Shown: positions 40,894 to 60,401, numbered from the stretch's first letter. The stretch is DNA of 64,000 nucleotides from Halopseudomonas xinjiangensis (GCF_900104945.1 NZ_LT629736.1:2046001-2110000), one strand, 5' to 3'. Translations and numbers: made by a program. Notes: generated by a model not told the origin, from the sequence alone.

Positions 40894-40992
40894 ATGCGGC
40901 AGTATCGACGCGGCCCTCACAGCAATCCGCAGTTACCTCACCTTCCCGCTCACGCGTCCGTTGCCCAGTTGATCGTCGGCAGGCCGGCGTGA
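40894..40992 (+). CDS. Possible 32-residue peptide coupled to the hybrid kinase
   Basis: A short frame with AAGGA 9 bases before its ATG encodes MRQYRRGPHSNPQ and then HLPAHASVAQLIVGRPA. Its TGA overlaps the GTG start of the kinase by four bases (GTGA), the arrangement used for translational coupling. It could be a leader that supplies ribosomes to the kinase start, which itself has no good ribosome site. It may also be fortuitous. Confidence 0.35.
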   Translation: MRQYRRGPHSNPQLPHLPAHASVAQLIVGRPA

Positions 40993-43900
40993 GTCAATCA
41001 TCAGGTTCCAGCCGGCGGATCGTCCCCCTTCGCCGGAGGTTGCTGGCAATCGCACTGGCCGGCATCCTGCCGCTGGCAACCATAGCCGGCATCGGCTTAT
41101 GGCGATTGGTAAATTACGAAGAAGCCCAGGTCGAGCTGCGCAACCTGGACATCACGCGCCTTGCCGCTACCGCAATCGAAACGGAAGTCGGCCGGTCGCT
41201 GGACGTTCTTGAAGCGCTATCGCTCGCCCCTGCGCTAGCCGAGGACGATCTGGAGCCCTTCGGCAGGCTTGTTCAGCGCGTATTACCACTGGTGCCTGAT
41301 TGGCATTCGCTGCTGATTGCCAACGTCGACGGCGAGGTGCTCCACCGCATCACGGTCGAGGGGATAGAACCGGGCGGCGCCATTGCCGACTGGGCCAGTT
41401 TCAGCTCGGTCATCGCTACCGAAAGGCGGCAGGCCGGCAATATCGCTCAAGGCCCTGAGGGTACCTGGGGTGTACCGCTGCGTGTCCCGGTCGTTCGAGA
41501 CGGAACCACAGAATATGTGTTGACCGCCGTACTCAAGCCCTCGGCGATTCTCAAGGTGGTGAGCACTCGCGCGCTACCCGAGGGAGCAGTGATGACCGTG
41601 CTCGATCGGAACGGCCGGCGCATCGCCAGGACCAGCCAGCATGAACAAACCCTGGGGCAGCCCGCCTCGCCGACTCTGGTTGACATGTTGGCGGAACGGC
41701 CCGAGGCAGAAGGTACCGGCCGCACCACGACCATCGAAGGTATGAATGCCTACACCTCGTTCGTCCGGCTGCAGCGAGAAGCCGGCTGGACGGTAGCTGT
41801 CGGCATGCCGACGGCAGCAGTCCAAGCCTCCGCAGCGCGGGCGTTCAGTATTTATGGTGGCGGGCTGACGCTCTCGCTGCTGCTGGCCATCGTCGCCGCC
41901 TTGATTGCCAGCCGCCGTATCAGCACGCCCATGACCGAATTGCGTCAGGCCGCTCTGGCCATAGGTACCAGTGAAATGCCGGTTGCGCCGAAGACCGATA
42001 TCGAAGAGATCAGCGAGGTCGGGCACGCTCTGGAAGCCTCCGGGCGGGCCCGACTGGAAAGCGAAGCGGAGCGCAGCCGTACCCTGCTTCGCCTCAGGCA
42101 GGCGCAGCAGGAACTGACGCTGCAAGTGACAGGACTCGAGCGGCTTCACGGCCTGAGCAACAGACTGATCGAACTCCCCGATTTGTCAGCACAACTGACC
42201 GCCATCGTCGACCTGCTCTGTGAGCTCCAGGATACCGATCATGCACTGATACTGTCGCGCCAGGGCTCCGGTCCGCTGCGCATCGTCGCCGCTGGCGGCT
42301 TCAGTTCGGACAACGTGGCGCAGCTGAACAGGTCCGACAGTTTGAAAGGCGACGTTGGCGCCCGGTTGCTGCGTGGCGGGCAGATATCGCTGGAAGACGG
42401 GATATGCGATCTGGACGGCTTCCGCTCGCTGCACAGCACACCGTTTCGAAGCAGCGACGGCTCGGTTTCCGGCGCGATCGTGCTACTGCAAATGCATCCT
42501 CACGAACCCAGCGCTCTGGATCGTCACCTCGCCGATCTGTGCGCAGGCCTGGCAGCAGTGTTGATTGACCGCGCTCACATGCAGACCCGCGCAGGCGAGT
42601 CGCAAAGAACCCTGCAAGTAGCCCTTGAATCGTCCTCAGTGCCCTTCTGTGTTCTGGCTCCAGACCGCGGTGATGATGGCCAGGTGCGCGACTTCTGCTG
42701 GGAATTCATCAACCCCCAGGGGGCCCGGGCTTTTCAGCGCTCGGTCGAGGAGCTCATCGGCTCGCCGCTCAGTCAGGTGCTCACCGGCTGGCAGGCGCGC
42801 CGGACCTTCGCCGAGTTGTTGCGCGTGGTCAATGATGGCGAGTCCAGAGATGTCGAGCTCGCCGCGGCGGAGCATCGGCAAGAGCGCTGGGTGCATATCA
42901 TTGCGACGCCATTCGAAGGCCGCGTGGCCGTCTGGTTTGCGGATATCACCGAACGCAAGCGACAGGAATCGCTGTTACGGCAGGCAGATCGACGCAAGGA
43001 TGAATTCCTCGCTACGCTGGCCCACGAACTCCGAAATCCGCTTGCGCCCATCCGAATGGCAGCAAGCCTGTTCGGCTCGCCGCGTGCTACCGAAGCACAG
43101 AAGCAGCGCAGCCAGCACATCATCGAGCGTCAGGTGGCACACATGGCTCTGCTGCTTGACGATCTGTTCGATATATCCAGGATCACGCTGGGGAAACTGA
43201 CGCTGCGAAAGCAACCGACCGATCTTCGTGACGTGGCTCGCGCGGCGCTGGAGACCGCTCGCCCGAAGCTTGAACTCCGGCGCCACGAGATGTCTCTCGA
43301 CCTTGCGGAATATCCGGTACCGGTCGAGGCGGACCCGATGCGTCTGGAGCAGATCATCACCAACCTGTTGACCAATGCGGCGAAATTCACCCCGGAAGCA
43401 GGCCGGGTTTGCGTTCAGGTGTTGATCGCTGATGGTCAGGCGGTAGTCAGCGTGACGGATAACGGCTTGGGTCTGGAGGCGGAGCAGATTCCGACGATTT
43501 TCGAAAAGTTCGCCCAGATCCCGATCCAGGGCGGCGCTGTCAGCGCCGGGCTGGGGATCGGCCTGGCGCTTGCGCGCGAGCTGGCGCGACTGCATGGAGG
43601 CGAAGTGCAGGCCTTCAGTCAGGGGCTTGGGCTCGGCTCCGAATTTCGTGTCAGGTTGCCACTGGGCAACGCCTCGACCGCAACAGACGGCTCCACGCAA
43701 CCCACGACTGCCAAACTGACCCGCCAGCGCCGGGTGCTGGTTGCCGACGACAATCCGGACATTGCCGGGACGGTCGCCGATATCCTGCGGCTCAACGGCC
43801 ATGAGGTCATCGTGGCGCATGATGGGACCGAGGCACTGACAGCGTTCGAGCGCGAGCTACCCGACGCGGCCGTATTGGATATCGGCATGCCGGGAATGCG

Positions 43901-44081
43901 CGGAGATGAGCTGGCCAGGACCATTCGGGCCCGTGCAGGCGGCGACCGCGTCCTGTTGATCGCCATGACCGGCTGGGGCCAGCCGACCGACAAACAGAAC
44001 GCACTGGACGCCGGCTTCAACGTACATCTGACCAAACCGGTCGATGCCCGCAGCCTGCTTGAGCTGGTTGGCGCCGACTAG
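40989..44081 (+). CDS. Membrane hybrid sensor histidine kinase (sensor-HAMP-GAF-PAS-HisKA-HATPase-REC)
   Basis: A 1030-residue inner-membrane kinase. Two transmembrane helices (about 18-37 and 285-308) flank a periplasmic dCache-like sensor; then a HAMP region, GAF (about 375-530), PAS (about 540-655), HisKA with TLAHELRNPL (phospho-His679), HATPase with NLLTNAAKF and GLGIGLALARELARL, and a receiver with acceptor Asp964 (VLDIGMP). The GTG at 40989 is inferred from coupling to the small peptide. No cognate output regulator lies beside it. It precedes the polysaccharide operon in convergent orientation. Confidence 0.9.
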   Translation: MSQSSGSSRRIVPLRRRLLAIALAGILPLATIAGIGLWRLVNYEEAQVELRNLDITRLAATAIETEVGRSLDVLEALSLAPALAEDDLEPFGRLVQRVLPLVPDWHSLLIANVDGEVLHRITVEGIEPGGAIADWASFSSVIATERRQAGNIAQGPEGTWGVPLRVPVVRDGTTEYVLTAVLKPSAILKVVSTRALPEGAVMTVLDRNGRRIARTSQHEQTLGQPASPTLVDMLAERPEAEGTGRTTTIEGMNAYTSFVRLQREAGWTVAVGMPTAAVQASAARAFSIYGGGLTLSLLLAIVAALIASRRISTPMTELRQAALAIGTSEMPVAPKTDIEEISEVGHALEASGRARLESEAERSRTLLRLRQAQQELTLQVTGLERLHGLSNRLIELPDLSAQLTAIVDLLCELQDTDHALILSRQGSGPLRIVAAGGFSSDNVAQLNRSDSLKGDVGARLLRGGQISLEDGICDLDGFRSLHSTPFRSSDGSVSGAIVLLQMHPHEPSALDRHLADLCAGLAAVLIDRAHMQTRAGESQRTLQVALESSSVPFCVLAPDRGDDGQVRDFCWEFINPQGARAFQRSVEELIGSPLSQVLTGWQARRTFAELLRVVNDGESRDVELAAAEHRQERWVHIIATPFEGRVAVWFADITERKRQESLLRQADRRKDEFLATLAHELRNPLAPIRMAASLFGSPRATEAQKQRSQHIIERQVAHMALLLDDLFDISRITLGKLTLRKQPTDLRDVARAALETARPKLELRRHEMSLDLAEYPVPVEADPMRLEQIITNLLTNAAKFTPEAGRVCVQVLIADGQAVVSVTDNGLGLEAEQIPTIFEKFAQIPIQGGAVSAGLGIGLALARELARLHGGEVQAFSQGLGLGSEFRVRLPLGNASTATDGSTQPTTAKLTRQRRVLVADDNPDIAGTVADILRLNGHEVIVAHDGTEALTAFERELPDAAVLDIGMPGMRGDELARTIRARAGGDRVLLIAMTGWGQPTDKQNALDAGFNVHLTKPVDARSLLELVGAD

Positions 44082-44132: not shown

Positions 44133-45119
44133 TCACGGACCCGCTGGCGGGTCGCGGAAAATCGATTCGGCCGGTTTGTTCTGCACGGTGAAGTCGGTGT
44201 CGTTCTCTCCGCCCGCGTCCGGGTTGGTATACCAGCACCAGATCCCCATGCCTTCGATACCCGGGCGGTCCAACACGGTCTTCCATTTCTCGAGAATGGT
44301 CTTCTGCAACTCGAGGTCAACCGGCAACTCCACTTCCTCGGGACTCTTCCACGGTGCCGCGAGCACATCATCAGCCGACCGCAAACCTACCTCGGCCACC
44401 CATACGGGCTTCTGATGGCGTTCGCCCAGCAGCACCAGCCGGTCGGCTGCCTCGCGCATCTGCGTATCGCGCTGCATCGGCTCGCTGGGCAGCGCCGGAT
44501 AGAGGCTGCTGCCGACCACGTCGAACACGCCCCAGTGCGGAAACTCTTCGGCTCGTTGCAAGCTATCGGTTACGTACAACACCTTGCCGGAGTACACCTC
44601 GCGCACCGCAGCGACCAGACCAGGCCATTTGCCGGATTGCTCGAGATTACGCAGTTCCGTTCCGACCACCAGCGCCGGTACCTGCTCCTGCTCGGCGACC
44701 CTTGCCAATGGCAGGACCGCTTCGCGGTAGGCGTCGAACCAGGCGTCCGGATCGGTTGGCTGCGCATCGCCAGCCCAGCGGTCGGGTATCCACAGGTGAA
44801 TCTTCAATACCGGCACCAGGCCCACCTGCTTCATCTGTCTCAGGCCCGCCTGGATCATTTCCGGACTGCTGTCGCTGCCAATGACCGGATCGTTGGAGTC
44901 TGTCTGGGCCTGCCAGGTGAACGCCACCAGCAATGCGCGATCAGCCCCGCTGTCGGCCAATTGTTGCAATGAACGCTTGGCCTCCTCGCTGTCCCAACCG
45001 GCATCTCCAGCGACTTTGACATTGGCGCCAATCCAGAACTCCGGTTGTTGCGTGCACCCGACAAGGGGCAACAGCAACACTGCCAGAAACATCAGGGTTC
45101 TCTTTGCCATACCCGCCAT
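44133..45119 (-). CDS. GH113-like glycosidase lipoprotein
   Basis: A 328-residue protein with lipoprotein signal (LAVLLLPLVGC) and an (beta/alpha)8-barrel of the glycoside-hydrolase 113 type: FWIGANVKVAGDAGWDSEEA, a conserved acid in VVGTELRNLEQSG, and VWVAEVGLRSADD, with the second candidate catalytic Glu in AEVG. GH113 enzymes are beta-mannanases or related. I chose the ATG at 45117-45119 (AAGGAG four bases upstream). It is the last gene of the polysaccharide operon and overlaps the upstream membrane gene by 28 bases. It likely trims or matures the polymer in the periplasm (inference). Confidence 0.8.
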   Translation of the reverse strand: MAGMAKRTLMFLAVLLLPLVGCTQQPEFWIGANVKVAGDAGWDSEEAKRSLQQLADSGADRALLVAFTWQAQTDSNDPVIGSDSSPEMIQAGLRQMKQVGLVPVLKIHLWIPDRWAGDAQPTDPDAWFDAYREAVLPLARVAEQEQVPALVVGTELRNLEQSGKWPGLVAAVREVYSGKVLYVTDSLQRAEEFPHWGVFDVVGSSLYPALPSEPMQRDTQMREAADRLVLLGERHQKPVWVAEVGLRSADDVLAAPWKSPEEVELPVDLELQKTILEKWKTVLDRPGIEGMGIWCWYTNPDAGGENDTDFTVQNKPAESIFRDPPAGP

Positions 45120-46606
45120 ACCTCTCCTTCGAATACCAATTGATAACCCGGCATGCCGCTTTCCCATAGCTGCGGGAACCGTTGCGAAATGCTGTCCTGA
45201 GCGCCTTCCAGCGAACCCGGCCGTGCGACCACGAGCTGCGCCGGCATGCCGCCGCGTGTCGAAAGCGCCAGCTTGAAGCGGTCGTCGAACGGCAGTATCA
45301 GCTGCTCGGCGTCGCGTCGTGCGGCAATGACCCGGTATGCCGCCTGGTCATCGATTAATGTCGGCAGACGCACATCAGCCAGCCATGCGCCGAGACGAAT
45401 GTCTTCGCTCGCGCGCTGCTCCAGCGGAGTGCGGAATGCTGTGGACCACTGCTGCACCTCCGGGAGCGGATCACGCAATAGCACCAGCCAACCGAGCGGT
45501 ATCGCCAGCAATAGCAGCACCGTCGCAGGAATCCGTTGCCAGGGCAGCAACGTGCGCAATCCAAGCGCTGCCGGCACCAGCAACAGCGAGAGAAAATCCA
45601 GCGCCTGGGTAGCGAACCAGGCCAGCGTCGCCATGGCGCCAGCGCAGACCAGCGTACCGGCCACGGCCAGGGTGCCGGCCCAACCACGCTGAAGACTCCA
45701 GAAAGCCAGAAGCAGCGACGGGAACGACAGCGCGCCTGTCACGACCAGCCACAGCAGCGGCTGCCACCACTGCCCGCCAAACTCGAGCAACCAGGGGAGA
45801 TACGGCGCATCGGCGTAACCGCCACGGAAAGCTGAATCAGCACGGGTAATAAACATCAGACTGTCGCCGAAGAACAGCCAGTTCATGTACATCCAGCCAA
45901 GCAGAGCAAACAGAAATGGCAGATAACATATGAGATAGAACGCCAGAGGCGCACGCTGAAGGATGGTGCGCGGCGCAACCAGGGCTAGCCAGGGCAGCAT
46001 GGCAAGCGCGATGAAGGACACCCGCTCGTCAATGAAGAACAACAGGCACAACCAGCCGGCAAACCGCAGATAGGCGCGCGGTTCCGGATCCCCGCGAAAG
46101 CTGCGCAGCGTGCGAAACAGGCCGTATACCGCGAGCGTTCCGAGTCCGAGATTGTGCCCGGAAGTGGCCACCCACAGAAAATACGGATGGCAGACCAGCA
46201 ACACCGTCCACAGCCAGCCCCAGAGCGCGCCATGGTCCCGCGTGATGTCGCGCCAGGCCAGCGACGCGAACAGGGTCATCGCACCGATATCCAGCAGGTA
46301 CGGCACCAGCACCCCAGGCAAGCCGGGCATCCAGCTGAACAAGAGACCCAGATAGACCGACATCTGCGTCGACAGGAACCCGGCAAACTCCAGACGCAGG
46401 CCTGCCGCGTCGCGCATCACCAGTAGCTTGGCGTAGCGCGCCAGTGCATCGCTGCTCATGTAGCCGTTGGCGAGCAGGTGGTAACACAGGGCGGCCAGCG
46501 CAAGCAGTACGACGATGAGTACCGGAGCGCTATGACGGCGGCGCCGCCGGGATCTACTCCCGGAGCGCGGCCTTGCGTTCGGCCGGTACGTACTTGCTAA
46601 TGCCAT
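45092..46606 (-). CDS. Multi-pass membrane protein, PMT/GT39-like glycosyltransferase candidate
   Basis: A 504-residue protein with about 10-12 hydrophobic segments (from residue 28 onward) and a soluble C-terminal part (about 395-504). The early exposed segment GYMSSDALARYAKLL and the absence of a GT2 domain suggest an undecaprenyl-phosphate-sugar-dependent transferase (GT-C fold) rather than a synthase. No sugar specificity can be inferred. The start overlaps the GT2 gene by 53 bases and its stop overlaps the GH113-like gene, so all belong to one operon. The Arg-rich N terminus (SRSRRRRRHS) is unusual. Confidence 0.72.
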   Translation of the reverse strand: MALASTYRPNARPRSGSRSRRRRRHSAPVLIVVLLALAALCYHLLANGYMSSDALARYAKLLVMRDAAGLRLEFAGFLSTQMSVYLGLLFSWMPGLPGVLVPYLLDIGAMTLFASLAWRDITRDHGALWGWLWTVLLVCHPYFLWVATSGHNLGLGTLAVYGLFRTLRSFRGDPEPRAYLRFAGWLCLLFFIDERVSFIALAMLPWLALVAPRTILQRAPLAFYLICYLPFLFALLGWMYMNWLFFGDSLMFITRADSAFRGGYADAPYLPWLLEFGGQWWQPLLWLVVTGALSFPSLLLAFWSLQRGWAGTLAVAGTLVCAGAMATLAWFATQALDFLSLLLVPAALGLRTLLPWQRIPATVLLLLAIPLGWLVLLRDPLPEVQQWSTAFRTPLEQRASEDIRLGAWLADVRLPTLIDDQAAYRVIAARRDAEQLILPFDDRFKLALSTRGGMPAQLVVARPGSLEGAQDSISQRFPQLWESGMPGYQLVFEGEVWRVWQREP

Positions 46607-48467
46607 GATTGGTCTTTTCCCAGTAGAACGGTCTGCTGATCAATTGCCAGAGGCCCTTGTATGCGGCAAATGACTGCAACAGCCAATACAGCGGAACGGT
46701 GAGCGCGTAAGGTGCCAGCTTGAAATAGTCGCGTTTGAAGCCTGCGACCAAGGTCATGTAGATGAAGAAGCCGTTGGCCAACAGCAGATTGAGCAGACTC
46801 AGATACACCAGCGCCGGTGGAAACAGGAAGTCGAAGGCGCGGGTCCCGGCTGCCAGCCAGAGGGCATAGATCAGCCAGAGCAAAGGCGCTGCCAGTGCGG
46901 TCAGCACACCACCGCCAATGAAGAACTGGAACCCCCAGAAGCCCCGAAAGCCGGTCGAGCGATACAGATGCACCGGATCGCGCATGTGTACCAGCCAGGT
47001 CTGCATGTAGCCCTTGAACCAGCGCGAACGCTGCCGGATCCAGTTGGGAATGCTCACGTTGGCTTCTTCGAAGGTAGTCGAATTGACCACGCTTACCCGA
47101 TAACCCTGCTGGACCAGACGCACTCCGAGATCGGCGTCTTCGGTAACGTTGTAAGGGTCCCAGGCATAAACGCTGCGTAGCGCCTGAATACGGAAGTGAT
47201 TGGATGTGCCGCCGAGCGGAATCGGAATGCGCAGGTACTCGAGTGCCGGCAGGTAGAAGTCGAACCAGAGCGTGTACTCCAGCGTGAACATCCGCGTCAG
47301 CCAGTTTTCATCGGCGTTGTAGTAATTCAGCCGTGCCTGCACGCATACCACCTCGGGTGCCGACTTGGCAAAAGCCGCCACCACGCGCTTGAGCTGACCC
47401 GGCTCGGGCTTGTCTTCGGCATCGTAGATGGTCACGAACTGGCCGCGGGCGAAACGCAGGGCGTAGTTGCAGGCCTTCGGCTTGGTACGCGGCGATGATG
47501 GCGGGACACGGATGATCTCGAAGATCGCTTCGAGCCCCAAACGTTTGGCCGCCTCGATGGTTTCCCGGTCGTCCGATTCGAGCACCAGCTTGATATCCAG
47601 CTTGGAGGCCGGATAGTCGAGCTTGCGCAACGCATTGGCGAGTATCGGCAGAATCTCCGGCTCGCGGTACATGGGCACCAGAACCGTATAGACCGGAAGA
47701 TCTTCCTCGCGCAGGCTGGCAACGTCGTCCTCGGTGACCTTGATGTCGATCCGCCGTCTCGATCCGTACCATACCAGCACCAGCTTCAACGCAAAGGTGG
47801 CGAGAAAGCCCAGCGTAATCAACACGTTCAGCCCGATCAGCGCATTGACAGGAGACAAGGCCAGCGCCACCAGAAGCACGGTGAGCAGCCCATACAGGGT
47901 AAGCAACTGCGGGCGAGTGATTACTTCACGCGCCGAATGCTCCGGCGCGCGGTCCGCCAGTAACGTCAGCGCGTCGTGAGTCAGACGGAAATCCGAGTCG
48001 AGCTGAAGGCTCCAGAGAATGTCGAACTTCGATGTACCGACAAACAGCACCTCTGGTCCGAAGGTGCGCCTCGCCCAGGTGAACGTCTCGGGGCCAGGGT
48101 CGGCCACTGCCAGCACCAGACGGTTATTCTCATAGCGCCAGGGAATGACCTGTCGCTCAGCACAGGCGGAAAAAAGATCGGGGTTGAGCGGCGCTTCCGG
48201 CGGATTCTCCACCAGATCGACGAAATCAAGCCCGAAGTGCTCGGATAGCGCCTGGTACAACCGCAGGGCGGTCATCCAGCGATGCGCGAGTACGATCTCG
48301 CCGAGGCGCGAGCGCCAGCGCTTTTGCAGTGACAATGCGGTGTCGCGATGCTCCGGACGCAGCAAACCCTTCTCGACCAGCATCTCACCGAGACGCTCGC
48401 GATCGGCGAGCGGGTTGGGTTGCCGTCCGTATGCGACGGCGGTACCGGTCATACCACTTTGCTGCAT
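46554..48467 (-). CDS. Processive GT2 synthase with N-terminal MshEN domain
   Basis: A 637-residue inner-membrane glycosyltransferase. Residues about 25-160 are an MshEN/GSPII_E_N domain, with tandem RLGEMLVEKGLL (25-36) and RLGEIVL (54-60) motifs like the c-di-GMP-binding repeats of MshE-type ATPases. TM helices at about 188-235 lead to a GT2 domain with LESDD, YDAEDKPEPG (348-357), TEDADLG (442-448) and QRSRW (479-483), the QxxRW of processive synthases; further helices follow. The architecture resembles NfrB and BcsA-like enzymes, but with MshEN instead of PilZ. It sits one base after the barrel gene's stop, in the operon with the BcsB-like gene. Confidence 0.88.
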   Translation of the reverse strand: MQQSGMTGTAVAYGRQPNPLADRERLGEMLVEKGLLRPEHRDTALSLQKRWRSRLGEIVLAHRWMTALRLYQALSEHFGLDFVDLVENPPEAPLNPDLFSACAERQVIPWRYENNRLVLAVADPGPETFTWARRTFGPEVLFVGTSKFDILWSLQLDSDFRLTHDALTLLADRAPEHSAREVITRPQLLTLYGLLTVLLVALALSPVNALIGLNVLITLGFLATFALKLVLVWYGSRRRIDIKVTEDDVASLREEDLPVYTVLVPMYREPEILPILANALRKLDYPASKLDIKLVLESDDRETIEAAKRLGLEAIFEIIRVPPSSPRTKPKACNYALRFARGQFVTIYDAEDKPEPGQLKRVVAAFAKSAPEVVCVQARLNYYNADENWLTRMFTLEYTLWFDFYLPALEYLRIPIPLGGTSNHFRIQALRSVYAWDPYNVTEDADLGVRLVQQGYRVSVVNSTTFEEANVSIPNWIRQRSRWFKGYMQTWLVHMRDPVHLYRSTGFRGFWGFQFFIGGGVLTALAAPLLWLIYALWLAAGTRAFDFLFPPALVYLSLLNLLLANGFFIYMTLVAGFKRDYFKLAPYALTVPLYWLLQSFAAYKGLWQLISRPFYWEKTNHGISKYVPAERKAALRE

Positions 48468-48468
48468 G

Positions 48469-49350
48469 TCAGAAGCGCCACCAGGCAGCTACGAAGGGGC
48501 CGTCCGCTCCGCCGGTATTGCGACCGAGTACCGGCTTGGTGTAACCCACCTGAAAATGTACATTGCCCGCACCGGGCGTGAACAACAGCGAAGCCTGTAG
48601 CTTGGTGAGGTCGTAATCGGTACTGTCGATGAACGCCAGGCGGTTGCGCTCTTCACCGTTACCCAAGCCTTCGATGACGTTCACCTCGCCCATCAACATC
48701 CAGTGCGGGTTCAACGCGATGCCGCTGGCAATGTCGAAGCGAAACTCATCGGCCGGATCGTCACTGCGCAGCCGAATCGCGGCCCCCGCGTCGATGTAAC
48801 CGTTGCGCCCACCGAGCACATAGCCACGTCCGACGCTATAGCGCAGCTCGAATGCATAATCGCCCAGGCCCAGCGCCGGCATCTCGTCGTCATCGTACGT
48901 CGGGATACTCACCAAGCCTTGCAGTGCGCCGACCCAGGTGTCGCCCGACCCTGGGTTCAAGCGGTAGCGCAAGGCAAGCTCCTGGTCACCGAAACCACGC
49001 GTGCTGCCGCTGAAGGTGTCGCTGTCGTAGCTCACATCGTTGTAATAGAAGTTGCCGATGGCAGTCAGGTCCGGGGTCAGTCCGTGCTCAATGTACAGGT
49101 TGATCTGGTCCTGGCGACTGTTGCCTCGATCGGGGAAGCGGGTCCTCTCGCTCGACGCGTCGAATGCGGTGGCATCTTCAGTGTGCGCCAGCTTCAGAAT
49201 CGTCAGGGTGCGCCCCTGTTCCTGTACCCAGGCGCCTGCCGAAACGGGCATGGCGACCCCAAACGAGAGCGCAGAAACAGCTGTCAGCAGGATGGCGCCC
49301 GGCGAAGGGACACGGCGCGCAGAGCGATGAAGCATCGAAGGTCGGTTCAT
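48469..49350 (-). CDS. Outer-membrane beta-barrel of the polysaccharide operon
   Basis: A 293-residue protein with a signal peptide (cleavage near residue 39 after SAGA) and amphipathic strands, ending in the aromatic AAWWRF expected for BamA recognition. It has no BcsC-type TPR scaffold or AlgE family features. The size fits a 12-14-strand pore; an export channel for the polymer is plausible from position between the BcsB-like protein and the synthase. Its ATG overlaps the BcsB-like stop by four bases. Confidence 0.78.
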   Translation of the reverse strand: MNRPSMLHRSARRVPSPGAILLTAVSALSFGVAMPVSAGAWVQEQGRTLTILKLAHTEDATAFDASSERTRFPDRGNSRQDQINLYIEHGLTPDLTAIGNFYYNDVSYDSDTFSGSTRGFGDQELALRYRLNPGSGDTWVGALQGLVSIPTYDDDEMPALGLGDYAFELRYSVGRGYVLGGRNGYIDAGAAIRLRSDDPADEFRFDIASGIALNPHWMLMGEVNVIEGLGNGEERNRLAFIDSTDYDLTKLQASLLFTPGAGNVHFQVGYTKPVLGRNTGGADGPFVAAWWRF

Positions 49351-51305
49351 AGTGAGTTCTTCCTCATTTTGCGGGCTACCAGCACGGCGATGATGGTCAG
49401 AAGCAACCAGGCGGCAGCGAATATCCAGCCGCGGTAACGGGCCAAGGTGTCGAGCCAGGTGGTTCGTTCAGGATAGGCGACACTGGCAACAGCGTCGTTT
49501 CGCGTATCGATGGCTACCAGCACGCCCCGGGAGTCGCCAAAAATCAGATCGCCTGTGGCACTTTCTGCGCCGGGCGGAAAGCCCGGCACACCTTCTGCAA
49601 CGGTTCTCAGCCAGAGACCGCGCTGGCTGCCACTGCGTACCAGACTGACCGTCTGGATGCCCGGCAGCTCGCCGGAGTCGAGCAACACCGAGCCGAACCG
49701 GTCCTGCACCTGAATTCGGCCATGGTCGAAGATGATCGGCGCGCTGAAGCCTTCGGGAGGTTGCGGACCAAGCCAGATGAACGGGCGGTCTGCCACCGGT
49801 GGCAGCGATACACTGCTGAACTCGGCGCCGCGCGGGTCTACGCCAAGACTGTTGCCGATGCTGCCGAGCACCCTGACCCAGGCCGACGGATCGCCGAAGG
49901 CATCCGCGGGCAGGTGCACGGAAAAGGCGCCGCCGACCCCGCGAGCGAACTCGGCCACGGTTTCGGGGGTGCGCTGCGACTCGACAGTTTCAAGCACCGA
50001 CGAATCGAGCAGCTGCGCGTAGCCGGAGCCCACTTCGGAATCGCAAGGCTGGTTGTCTTGGCCCTTGAGCACGATGCGCACCGGGTCCTTGGCGTACAGC
50101 CCGGCTTCATTCAGCGGCAGCGACAGCGAATGCCGCCCTCCCTCGCTGGGCAAGGATTGCAGTCCGCGAACCACGTTGTTCTGCAGGATATACAGCACCA
50201 GGGGTGCGTCGTCCGGGCTCGGGGGCACGACCATATCCAGACGTAACGCAGCCGGCGCGCGCCCGGTAGGGAGAATGTCCGTGCGAAAGGTCCATTCGGT
50301 CGGGTCACGGAAGACTCGCGCGCTGACATCCGCGCCCAGACGCTCCAGGGCGAAGCGCTCGGAGGACCCGCTTTCCAGAGGAGCACCGAGACTCTCGCCA
50401 TAGCCATCGTCCGCCAGCAGCAGCGCCCAAGGACCGGCAAGTGAATCGATGTGATAAGGCTCGACGATAGCCATCTGTTGTCTCGCCGACGCTTCGGCCG
50501 GCTCAATGAGCTGGATGTCGTTTTCCGCTTCGAGAAGAACACCTTGCTGGGCTAGCGCGTCGCGGGTGGAGATGACGATGTCCGCTTCCTCGCCCGGATC
50601 CGCGTGACTGACGGTGTGTCCGCGTGCTTGAAGCTCGCGGGTGAGCAGCCAGGCAGCACGAATCGCTTCGGCCCCGAGCCAGGGGTCCATCGCCAGGGAA
50701 ACACTATCGGGGAGCGTAGTGAGAAAGCTGCGAATGCTGGTACGGGGCTCGTCATCAAGCTCGTAGACGATGGCGGTTTCCGGAAGAACCCGGAAAAAGC
50801 GCTGGCGACCCGGCGCGCTGCAACTGTTGACCGTCGAGTACCAGTTGGCACTGACTTCTACCTCGACGAAGGGCCTGTTCAGGTCCGCTTCGCTCAGCGG
50901 CAATATGATCTGTGAACGGCGCAGCGAGCCACCCCCAGGCGCGTCGGGCAGCTCGCCGACATCGTCCATGGAGATCAATTCACGGGGCGTGCCGTTGACG
51001 GTAACTTGCAGCGTGGCCCCCGCCTCGGCAAGCATCGGAACCGCGTAACGAAGATCCAGGCGCGGATCGCCCAGTTCGGCGTCGAGCGGCAACGGCAGGC
51101 GAAAGCTGACGACATCTTCTGCGTGAAGCGGATGCAGCCCTTGGCCATGACCAATGTCGGCCAGGTTTCGCCAGGCGGTACTCAGCTCTTCGGAGGGCGC
51201 TTCGGCCTCCGATTGTTCATCTGCTGTCTGCGCATGAGTGAGCTGCGAAAGTAGAAGTGCGCAGCAATAGAACAACATCGGCATCCCGCCGAAACTGAAT
51301 CGCAT
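49347..51305 (-). CDS. BcsB-like periplasmic subunit, C-terminally membrane-anchored
   Basis: A 652-residue exported protein with signal peptide (MLFYCCALLLSQLTHAQ) and a C-terminal transmembrane helix (WIFAAAWLLLTIIAVLVARKM). The jelly-roll segments (TLQVTVNGTPRELISMDD; RPFVEVEVSANWYSTVNSCS) are those of the cellulose synthase regulatory subunit BcsB family, in which a periplasmic carbohydrate-binding scaffold docks on BcsA. It is first in the operon and followed by the barrel, synthase, GT-C-like and GH113-like genes. The ATG at 51303-51305 is chosen over a TTG at 51338. No good ribosome site is visible. Confidence 0.83.
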   Translation of the reverse strand: MRFSFGGMPMLFYCCALLLSQLTHAQTADEQSEAEAPSEELSTAWRNLADIGHGQGLHPLHAEDVVSFRLPLPLDAELGDPRLDLRYAVPMLAEAGATLQVTVNGTPRELISMDDVGELPDAPGGGSLRRSQIILPLSEADLNRPFVEVEVSANWYSTVNSCSAPGRQRFFRVLPETAIVYELDDEPRTSIRSFLTTLPDSVSLAMDPWLGAEAIRAAWLLTRELQARGHTVSHADPGEEADIVISTRDALAQQGVLLEAENDIQLIEPAEASARQQMAIVEPYHIDSLAGPWALLLADDGYGESLGAPLESGSSERFALERLGADVSARVFRDPTEWTFRTDILPTGRAPAALRLDMVVPPSPDDAPLVLYILQNNVVRGLQSLPSEGGRHSLSLPLNEAGLYAKDPVRIVLKGQDNQPCDSEVGSGYAQLLDSSVLETVESQRTPETVAEFARGVGGAFSVHLPADAFGDPSAWVRVLGSIGNSLGVDPRGAEFSSVSLPPVADRPFIWLGPQPPEGFSAPIIFDHGRIQVQDRFGSVLLDSGELPGIQTVSLVRSGSQRGLWLRTVAEGVPGFPPGAESATGDLIFGDSRGVLVAIDTRNDAVASVAYPERTTWLDTLARYRGWIFAAAWLLLTIIAVLVARKMRKNSL

Positions 51306-51492
51306 TGTTGAACGTGCCCTGGGTGGAAGCCCGTCCAATGGGCGTGTACTGGTTGAATCCGACCATGCCTTTAGGTGCTTCGTGCTGGCCTTTGTTCCGG
51401 AGAAACCGAAGCTTTTTGATGGCGAGATCGCGGCTAGCCGCTATCAACCGAGCCAGAGCGCTCGGAGGATTTTGCCCTGCGCGGGAAGACAG

Positions 51493-60288: not shown

Positions 60289-60401
60289 GGTGGCAGCCCT
60301 GCCAGCCACACCCCGGCACACGACAAAGCCGCTGCGGCTGCTCCCTTCCGGGCCTGACCGGGTTAACGGCGGATCGTTGCGAGGGGACCGACAGGGCCAC
60401 C
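60289..60401 (-). ncRNA. ffs: Signal recognition particle 4.5S RNA
   Basis: On the minus strand the RNA begins near GGTGGCCCTGTCGG (complement up to 60401) and ends near CAGGGCTGCCACCC (down to about 60288), forming the long terminal helix. In the middle is the universally conserved domain IV: GGTCAGGCCCGGAAGGGAGC followed by AGCC, matching E. coli 4.5S RNA GGUCAGGUCCGGAAGGAAGCAGC. Length (about 113 nt) is right. It binds Ffh for co-translational membrane targeting. A promoter-like pair lies 30-55 bases upstream, and the 5' leader is presumably removed by RNase P. Confidence 0.93.

Follow-up and report, generated by a model that had tools for sequence, protein, structure and literature searches.

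Five tightly packed genes in Halopseudomonas xinjiangensis raise the question of whether they encode a new, c-di-GMP-gated exopolysaccharide system, as the initial annotation proposed, or belong to an operon type that has already been described. We examined this locus in a window of 64,000 nucleotides (NZ_LT629736.1:2046001-2110000), taken from a host genome that consists of one 3.54-Mb contig. This operon adds a further member to the Xag/Sfz type, here in Halopseudomonas. We consider it likely that its five genes (BcsB-like gene, xagA, xagB, xagC, and xagD) form a Xag-type operon for the synthase-dependent production of an exopolysaccharide, working as proposed below.

Organization of the locus

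All five open reading frames, annotated earlier as overlapping or near-abutting genes of the minus strand, are present, and the operon spans 44133-51338 on that strand (Table 1). Genes A and B overlap by 4 nt, genes B and C are spaced by 1 nt, genes C and D overlap by 53 nt, and genes D and E also overlap. The start first given for gene A, 51305, is an internal ATG, and a TTG start gives the longer gene. The probable start of gene E lies near 45119, where its relatives keep the start MAGMA. Promoter-like sites did not exceed chance and 11 terminator-like sites were observed for 6.5 expected; neither was used as evidence. No plasmid carrying the locus was found in the plasmid search. A hybrid sensor kinase gene converges on the operon and ends 51 nt from the stop of gene E, and two small RNAs lie elsewhere in the window.

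Table 1. Positions of the operon genes and of other features, counted from the first nucleotide of the window.
Feature	Position	Strand	Description
Gene A	49347-51338	-	BcsB-like periplasmic, membrane-anchored scaffold (predicted fold); TTG start; Kato CDS9/Sfz1
Gene B	48469-49350	-	XagA-like predicted outer-membrane barrel
Gene C	46554-48467	-	XagB: N-terminal MshEN and processive GT2 synthase with membrane helices
MshEN c-di-GMP double motif, 53 residues	48237-48395	-	Residues 25-77 of gene C
Gene D	45092-46606	-	XagC, multi-pass membrane protein of predicted GT-C fold
Gene E	44133-45167	-	XagD, GH113 lipoprotein, predicted endo-beta-1,4-mannanase
Hybrid sensor kinase	40989-44081	+	dCache-like, PAS, HisKA, HATPase, receiver
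sRNA P9	23434-23504	-	Pseudomonas sRNA
SRP RNA	60297-60393	-	Small SRP RNA

Identification of the five proteins

The GT2 part of gene C matches PF13632 with 82.6 bits and its MshEN part matches NF053729 with 46.9 bits (cut-off 38). The protein has the D-x-D-like, TED, and QxxRW motifs of processive GT2 enzymes, and among its relatives TED is present in 77/78 sequences and QxxRW in 78/78. Gene E matches GH113 (PF22612) with 106 bits, above the cut-off, and has a lipobox. GH113 is a beta-mannanase family. Compared with the GH113 beta-mannanases of the PDB, gene E gives 2.4e-16 with both catalytic Glu aligned, the second of which is marked by 5yli, whose sequence differs from that of 5ylh at the aligned Glu. 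Both residues are kept in 33 of 34 relatives. The MshEN-GT2 synthase and the glycosidase lipoprotein of the initial annotation were therefore correctly recognized.

The protein of gene A gave no Pfam or PDB match by itself. Its AlphaFold2 model (pLDDT 76), obtained like that of gene D with alignments of relatives as input, has the BcsB fold, with a Foldseek value of 1.9e-23 against E. coli BcsB and a VIA Z of 17.4 over 531 residues (rmsd 5.7). A gene A profile matches PDB BcsB chains at 3e-6, and several orthologues exceed the Pfam BcsB cut-off, the window protein lying below it. Fold and profile bear out the BcsB-like scaffold that had been proposed. Rows for CBM27, which is mannan-binding, were obtained for the second jelly roll of gene A; as they were of mid-Z and common to many jelly rolls, they were not used. 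Gene A occurs in only 7 of the 37 genomes of the genus that were searched, that of the window included, so the operon is accessory in Halopseudomonas. Sampled 31-mers of these carriers all matched named loci of Halopseudomonas xinjiangensis, Pseudomonas profundi, P. saliphila, and a Pseudomonas MAG; with the Pseudomonas sRNA P9 in the window, this places it in Halopseudomonas, a marine-type relative of Pseudomonas, or very near to it.

Gene B gave no Pfam or family match. In most Xanthomonas loci, the gene ahead of xagB is 44-54% identical to it, and the identity reaches 63% in Xanthomonas sp. AmX2 (L029). Its earlier description as an outer-membrane barrel stands as a prediction: the N-terminus is signal-like, and the C-terminal Phe, found in 51/52 relatives, is typical of outer-membrane barrels and fits this assignment. 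Gene D also lacks a Pfam or sequence-family match. Its predicted structure (AlphaFold2 pLDDT 87) has the GT-C fold and matches ArnT first (Z 20.6 over 393 residues, Foldseek 6e-5), then PMT and OST, with rows at Z 16-21, in agreement with the multi-pass GT-C-like protein annotated initially. The first periplasmic loop carries an acidic residue, a candidate for the catalytic one expected there in GT-C glycosyltransferases, which is an Asp at SSDALARYAK in the window and Asp or Glu in many relatives. The segment with this residue is kept in Halopseudomonas and in early-branching Xanthomonas, and is missing from the XagC of core Xanthomonas (L011, L012, L015, L016, and L024), which is possibly an inactive GT-C protein.

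Relationship to the xag and sfz clusters

Gene C is 69-73% identical over its full length to XagB of most Xanthomonas loci, and XagD is 52-59% identical between the window and Xanthomonas. Based on gene content, gene order, and published work, we infer that the Xanthomonas loci fetched here are xagABCD. This EPS operon contributes to biofilm formation in Xanthomonas, as an rpfG mutant, whose biofilm is elevated, forms less of it when xagA or xagB is deleted (PMC3609779). The polysaccharide that xag directs is described as uncharacterised, and c-di-GMP, acting through Clp, derepresses the operon (PMC3528676). In iron-oxidising stalk formers, xagB, xagC, and xagD come after a BcsB-like gene, an arrangement described in 2015 (PMC4643136) and renamed sfz1-sfz4 in 2021 as the candidate cluster for the iron-oxyhydroxide stalk of iron oxidisers (PMC8250860).

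The gene order is A-(B)-C-D-E in the window and A-C-D-E in L041 and L042. The latter, a Mariprofundaceae contig, continues as A-C-D-E-B-CotH, which is the order of sfz1-sfz6, and its first five genes also match in length. This synteny, together with the profiles, suggests that sfz3 encodes a GT-C protein and sfz4 a GH113 enzyme, and that sfz5 is probably a XagA-like barrel; these assignments were not found stated in the accessible parts of the stalk-cluster literature.

The set thus corresponds to the described xagABCD plus a BcsB-like gene (PMC4643136, PMC8250860, PMC3609779, PMC3528676), and the claim of a novel system finds no support. A match to a described operon had been named beforehand as the finding that would speak against novelty, and such a match was found, to the Xag/Sfz type, which the initial annotation had not considered. 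A new, undescribed c-di-GMP exopolysaccharide system would suit the lack of a Pfam family for genes A, B, and D, the lack of canonical Bcs in the host, and the fact that our literature search found no paper naming both XagB and MshEN. Nevertheless, the strong one-to-one homology and synteny with the published xagABCD, BcsB-like/xagBCD, and sfz clusters refute this reading, which we regard as highly improbable. A place in the Nfr (NfrBA-YbcH) glycan system, with the synthase rearranged, is likewise highly improbable. MshEN and GT2 are fused in both, and BLASTP gives about 29% identity for MshEN and about 22% for GT2, but the domain order is reversed, NfrB having GT2 then MshEN and XagB having MshEN then GT2. 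Furthermore, gene A does not match YbcH, no NfrA-like TPR-barrel gene is present, and gene C reaches 27.5 bits against an NfrB cut-off of 1170. Membership was rejected after these tests with E. coli NfrB and YbcH. A canonical cellulose operon was likewise rejected, as BcsA and BcsB were found nowhere in the whole host genome. XagB scores 43 bits with the CelA model, far under its cut-off of 699, and the statement that the system is not canonical cellulose was thus accurate.

Distribution and variation of the loci

A gene C homologue at 1e-100 was found in 44 of 398 genomes (an even sample of the phylum). In the XagB tree, the window groups with Halopseudomonas (97/97) inside a clade with Xanthomonas and Pseudoxanthomonas (100/100). 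The core A-C-D recurs across Halopseudomonas, betaproteobacteria, Zetaproteobacteria, alphaproteobacteria, and Bacteroidota, and carriers of the core with A include Thiobacillus, Gallionella, and Mariprofundaceae. As synteny is conserved across phyla, chance is ruled out. Gammaproteobacteria, Zetaproteobacteria, and some other groups have a GH113 hydrolase, whose place is taken in Bacteroidota by a divergent GH5 that is closest to endoglucanases. In Bacteroidota, the BcsB-like gene is also immediately preceded by a histidine kinase gene (L053, 3151-5678, and the corresponding parts of other loci).

A local BcsB-like gene is missing from most xag loci of Xanthomonas, which indicates that gene A is not universally needed. 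In many Xanthomonas, xagABCD is followed on its own strand, after about 3 kb, by a canonical bcsA (PilZ) and bcsB (L015, 14711-17880; also L011, L012, L014, L019-L021, and others); in L015 this neighbour was confirmed as a cellulose operon by Pfam BcsB and PilZ. The xag system of Xanthomonas might borrow the BcsB of this operon. A BcsB-like gene hidden in the xag loci themselves was also considered and rejected, as the only BcsB that the profile picked up was that of the cellulose operon next to them. Downstream of xag in Xanthomonas sp. AmX2 (L029, 13400-16955), a wecB-like epimerase gene is followed by a BcsB-like gene of about 720 aa, whose product outscores true BcsB against the gene A profile. 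It was rejected as a translocated gene A because it follows pncB and the wecB-like gene and lies in a different locus; it may be part of a further glycan locus of the BcsB type.

Several other variations were observed. Some alphaproteobacteria have a response-regulator-GGDEF gene directly after XagC (L040, 6300-7277; L043, 11379-12338; L045, 11277-12329; L046, 3153-4050); these genes were rejected as dedicated cyclases, as none of the three sequences examined has an intact GGDEF motif. In Xanthomonas arboricola CFBP 7645 (L051, 7785-9901), xagB is split into two overlapping frames, likely by a frameshift or an assembly error. In X. phaseoli pv. phaseoli ATCC 49119 (L018, 5688-8001), the distance between the xagA-like gene and xagB exceeds that of other Xanthomonas by about 1.2 kb, which suggests an insertion.

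Possible c-di-GMP gating and predicted product

The MshEN motif comprises two 24-residue repeats, RLG...G...L...L...Q, whose contact residues are known (PMC5013675). The window protein keeps 11 of the 14 key (ligand-contact) positions; it has Arg41 in place of Leu25, Arg63 in place of Gly47, and His77 in place of Gln61. The first Arg of the motif is usually Leu in Xanthomonas XagB, and in the Bacteroidota synthases the RLG motif is gone. NfrB, a proven c-di-GMP binder (PMC8669469), has a first repeat that deviates from the strict motif; a relaxed version is passed by NfrB with 10/11 and 11/11 and by the window with 10 and 9 of 11. Of the c-di-GMP-gated synthase initially claimed, the MshEN domain stands, and gating of XagB through it is only plausible: with three differing positions and the loss of the motif in Bacteroidota, it may be absent. 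In the stalk-cluster paper, the N-terminus of XagB/Sfz2 was taken as a secretion ATPase-like domain (PMC8250860). Reading it as MshEN, and not as a secretion ATPase remnant, makes c-di-GMP binding directly testable.

Hydrolases within such operons usually cut the polymer made by the same operon, as BcsZ, AlgL, and PslG do. In a 2022 survey, the secreted Xanthomonas GH113s AAM39996.1 and AJZ27962.1 cut mannan, glucomannan, and galactomannan in an endo mode (PMC9032380). These two enzymes are probably XagD, as each of the four Xanthomonas genomes searched has a single GH113, which is the xag-locus gene. As an independent strand, the beta-1,4-mannanase ManA is implicated in the dispersal of the xag-promoted Xanthomonas biofilm, and the sfz cluster has a phosphomannose isomerase next to it. 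The host genome has a GDP-mannose supply, a common trait that weighs little. The GH113 link, ManA, the isomerase, and the habit of operon hydrolases together point to a beta-1,4-linked hexan, mannan or glucomannan, as the most likely product. The hydrolase gene does not prove the product, and in Bacteroidota the GH5 speaks for a glucan, so that the polymer of that phylum may differ or be non-mannan.

Two alternatives bear on these proposals. The synthase could be active with a MshEN-derived domain that no longer binds c-di-GMP, which would then act on transcription alone, as via Clp in Xanthomonas. The altered key positions, the complete loss of the motif in Bacteroidota, and the demonstrated derepression of xagA through Clp (PMC3528676) argue for this, whereas the 11 positions that are kept, the score of the NCBIfam c-di-GMP motif model above its cut-off, and the binding by NfrB despite its own departure argue against it; we consider it the less probable course, though one to be taken seriously. 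With regard to the polymer, XagB could be a cellulose-like (beta-1,4-glucan) synthase variant that uses UDP-glucose, the hydrolase trimming glucan or glucomannan. BcsA is among the solved structures closest to the GT2 synthase, the partner gene A has the BcsB fold, the GH5 of Bacteroidota is closest to endoglucanases, and the published Xanthomonas GH113s cut glucomannan too (PMC9032380). However, the proteobacterial hydrolase belongs to a family of mannanases of which Xanthomonas members have been characterised, XagB is far from the CelA cut-off, and a distinct bcsA-bcsB operon lies next to xag in Xanthomonas. We regard a glucan synthase as somewhat unlikely. The most complete form of the mannan proposal is offered just as tentatively: Xag would be a beta-1,4-mannan/glucomannan system with synthase-dependent export through a GT2 machine resembling BcsA/BcsB, fed by GDP-mannose, gated by c-di-GMP through MshEN, decorated by the GT-C protein, and trimmed by its own endo-beta-mannanase, and the same polymer would form the basis of Xanthomonas biofilms and of the organic matrix in the twisted stalks of iron oxidisers.

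Proposed working and significance

The gene identifications agree with the logic of synthase-dependent export put forward initially, with an export path that would run as follows. For the Xag-type operon, XagB would polymerise a nucleotide sugar in the cytoplasm and thread the chain through its own membrane channel, probably stimulated by c-di-GMP via its N-terminal MshEN domain. The BcsB-fold protein A would take up the chain in the periplasm, and XagA would serve as the outer-membrane exit. XagC may add a sugar from a polyprenyl-phosphate donor or may be a structural partner. The lipoprotein XagD, as an endo-beta-1,4-mannanase, would trim or release the polymer, as BcsZ does for cellulose.

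The GT-C fold predicted for XagC, the probable identity of Sfz5 as a XagA-like barrel, and the reach of the A-C-D core into Bacteroidota are new here, as is the synthesis of the BcsB fold, the GT-C fold, the MshEN assessment, and the GH113-mannanase link. Joining xagD to characterised GH113 beta-mannanases yields a concrete prediction of a beta-1,4-mannan or glucomannan for all carriers, and Halopseudomonas provides an environmental host with the five genes together in a single operon.

Comparison with known systems

The operon shares with Bcs cellulose synthase a working principle of processive GT2, BcsB fold, hydrolase, and outer-membrane exit. In contrast to Bcs, it has neither PilZ nor the BcsC TPR porin, and GH113 replaces GH8. 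With NfrBA-YbcH, the N4 glycan receptor of E. coli, it shares a GT2 synthase with a MshEN domain. The sfz stalk cluster exhibits the BcsB-like protein, the MshEN(T2SSE_N)-GT2 synthase, the membrane protein, and the hydrolase in the same order as the window, but its barrel follows the hydrolase and precedes a CotH protein, and the identities are 22-60%. xagABCD of Xanthomonas differs in that gene A is missing from most loci and that the core Xanthomonas XagC, which is devoid of the first-loop segment, is only 31-38% identical; barrel, MshEN-GT2, GT-C-like protein, and GH113 are otherwise found as B-C-D-E in the same order and orientation as in Halopseudomonas.
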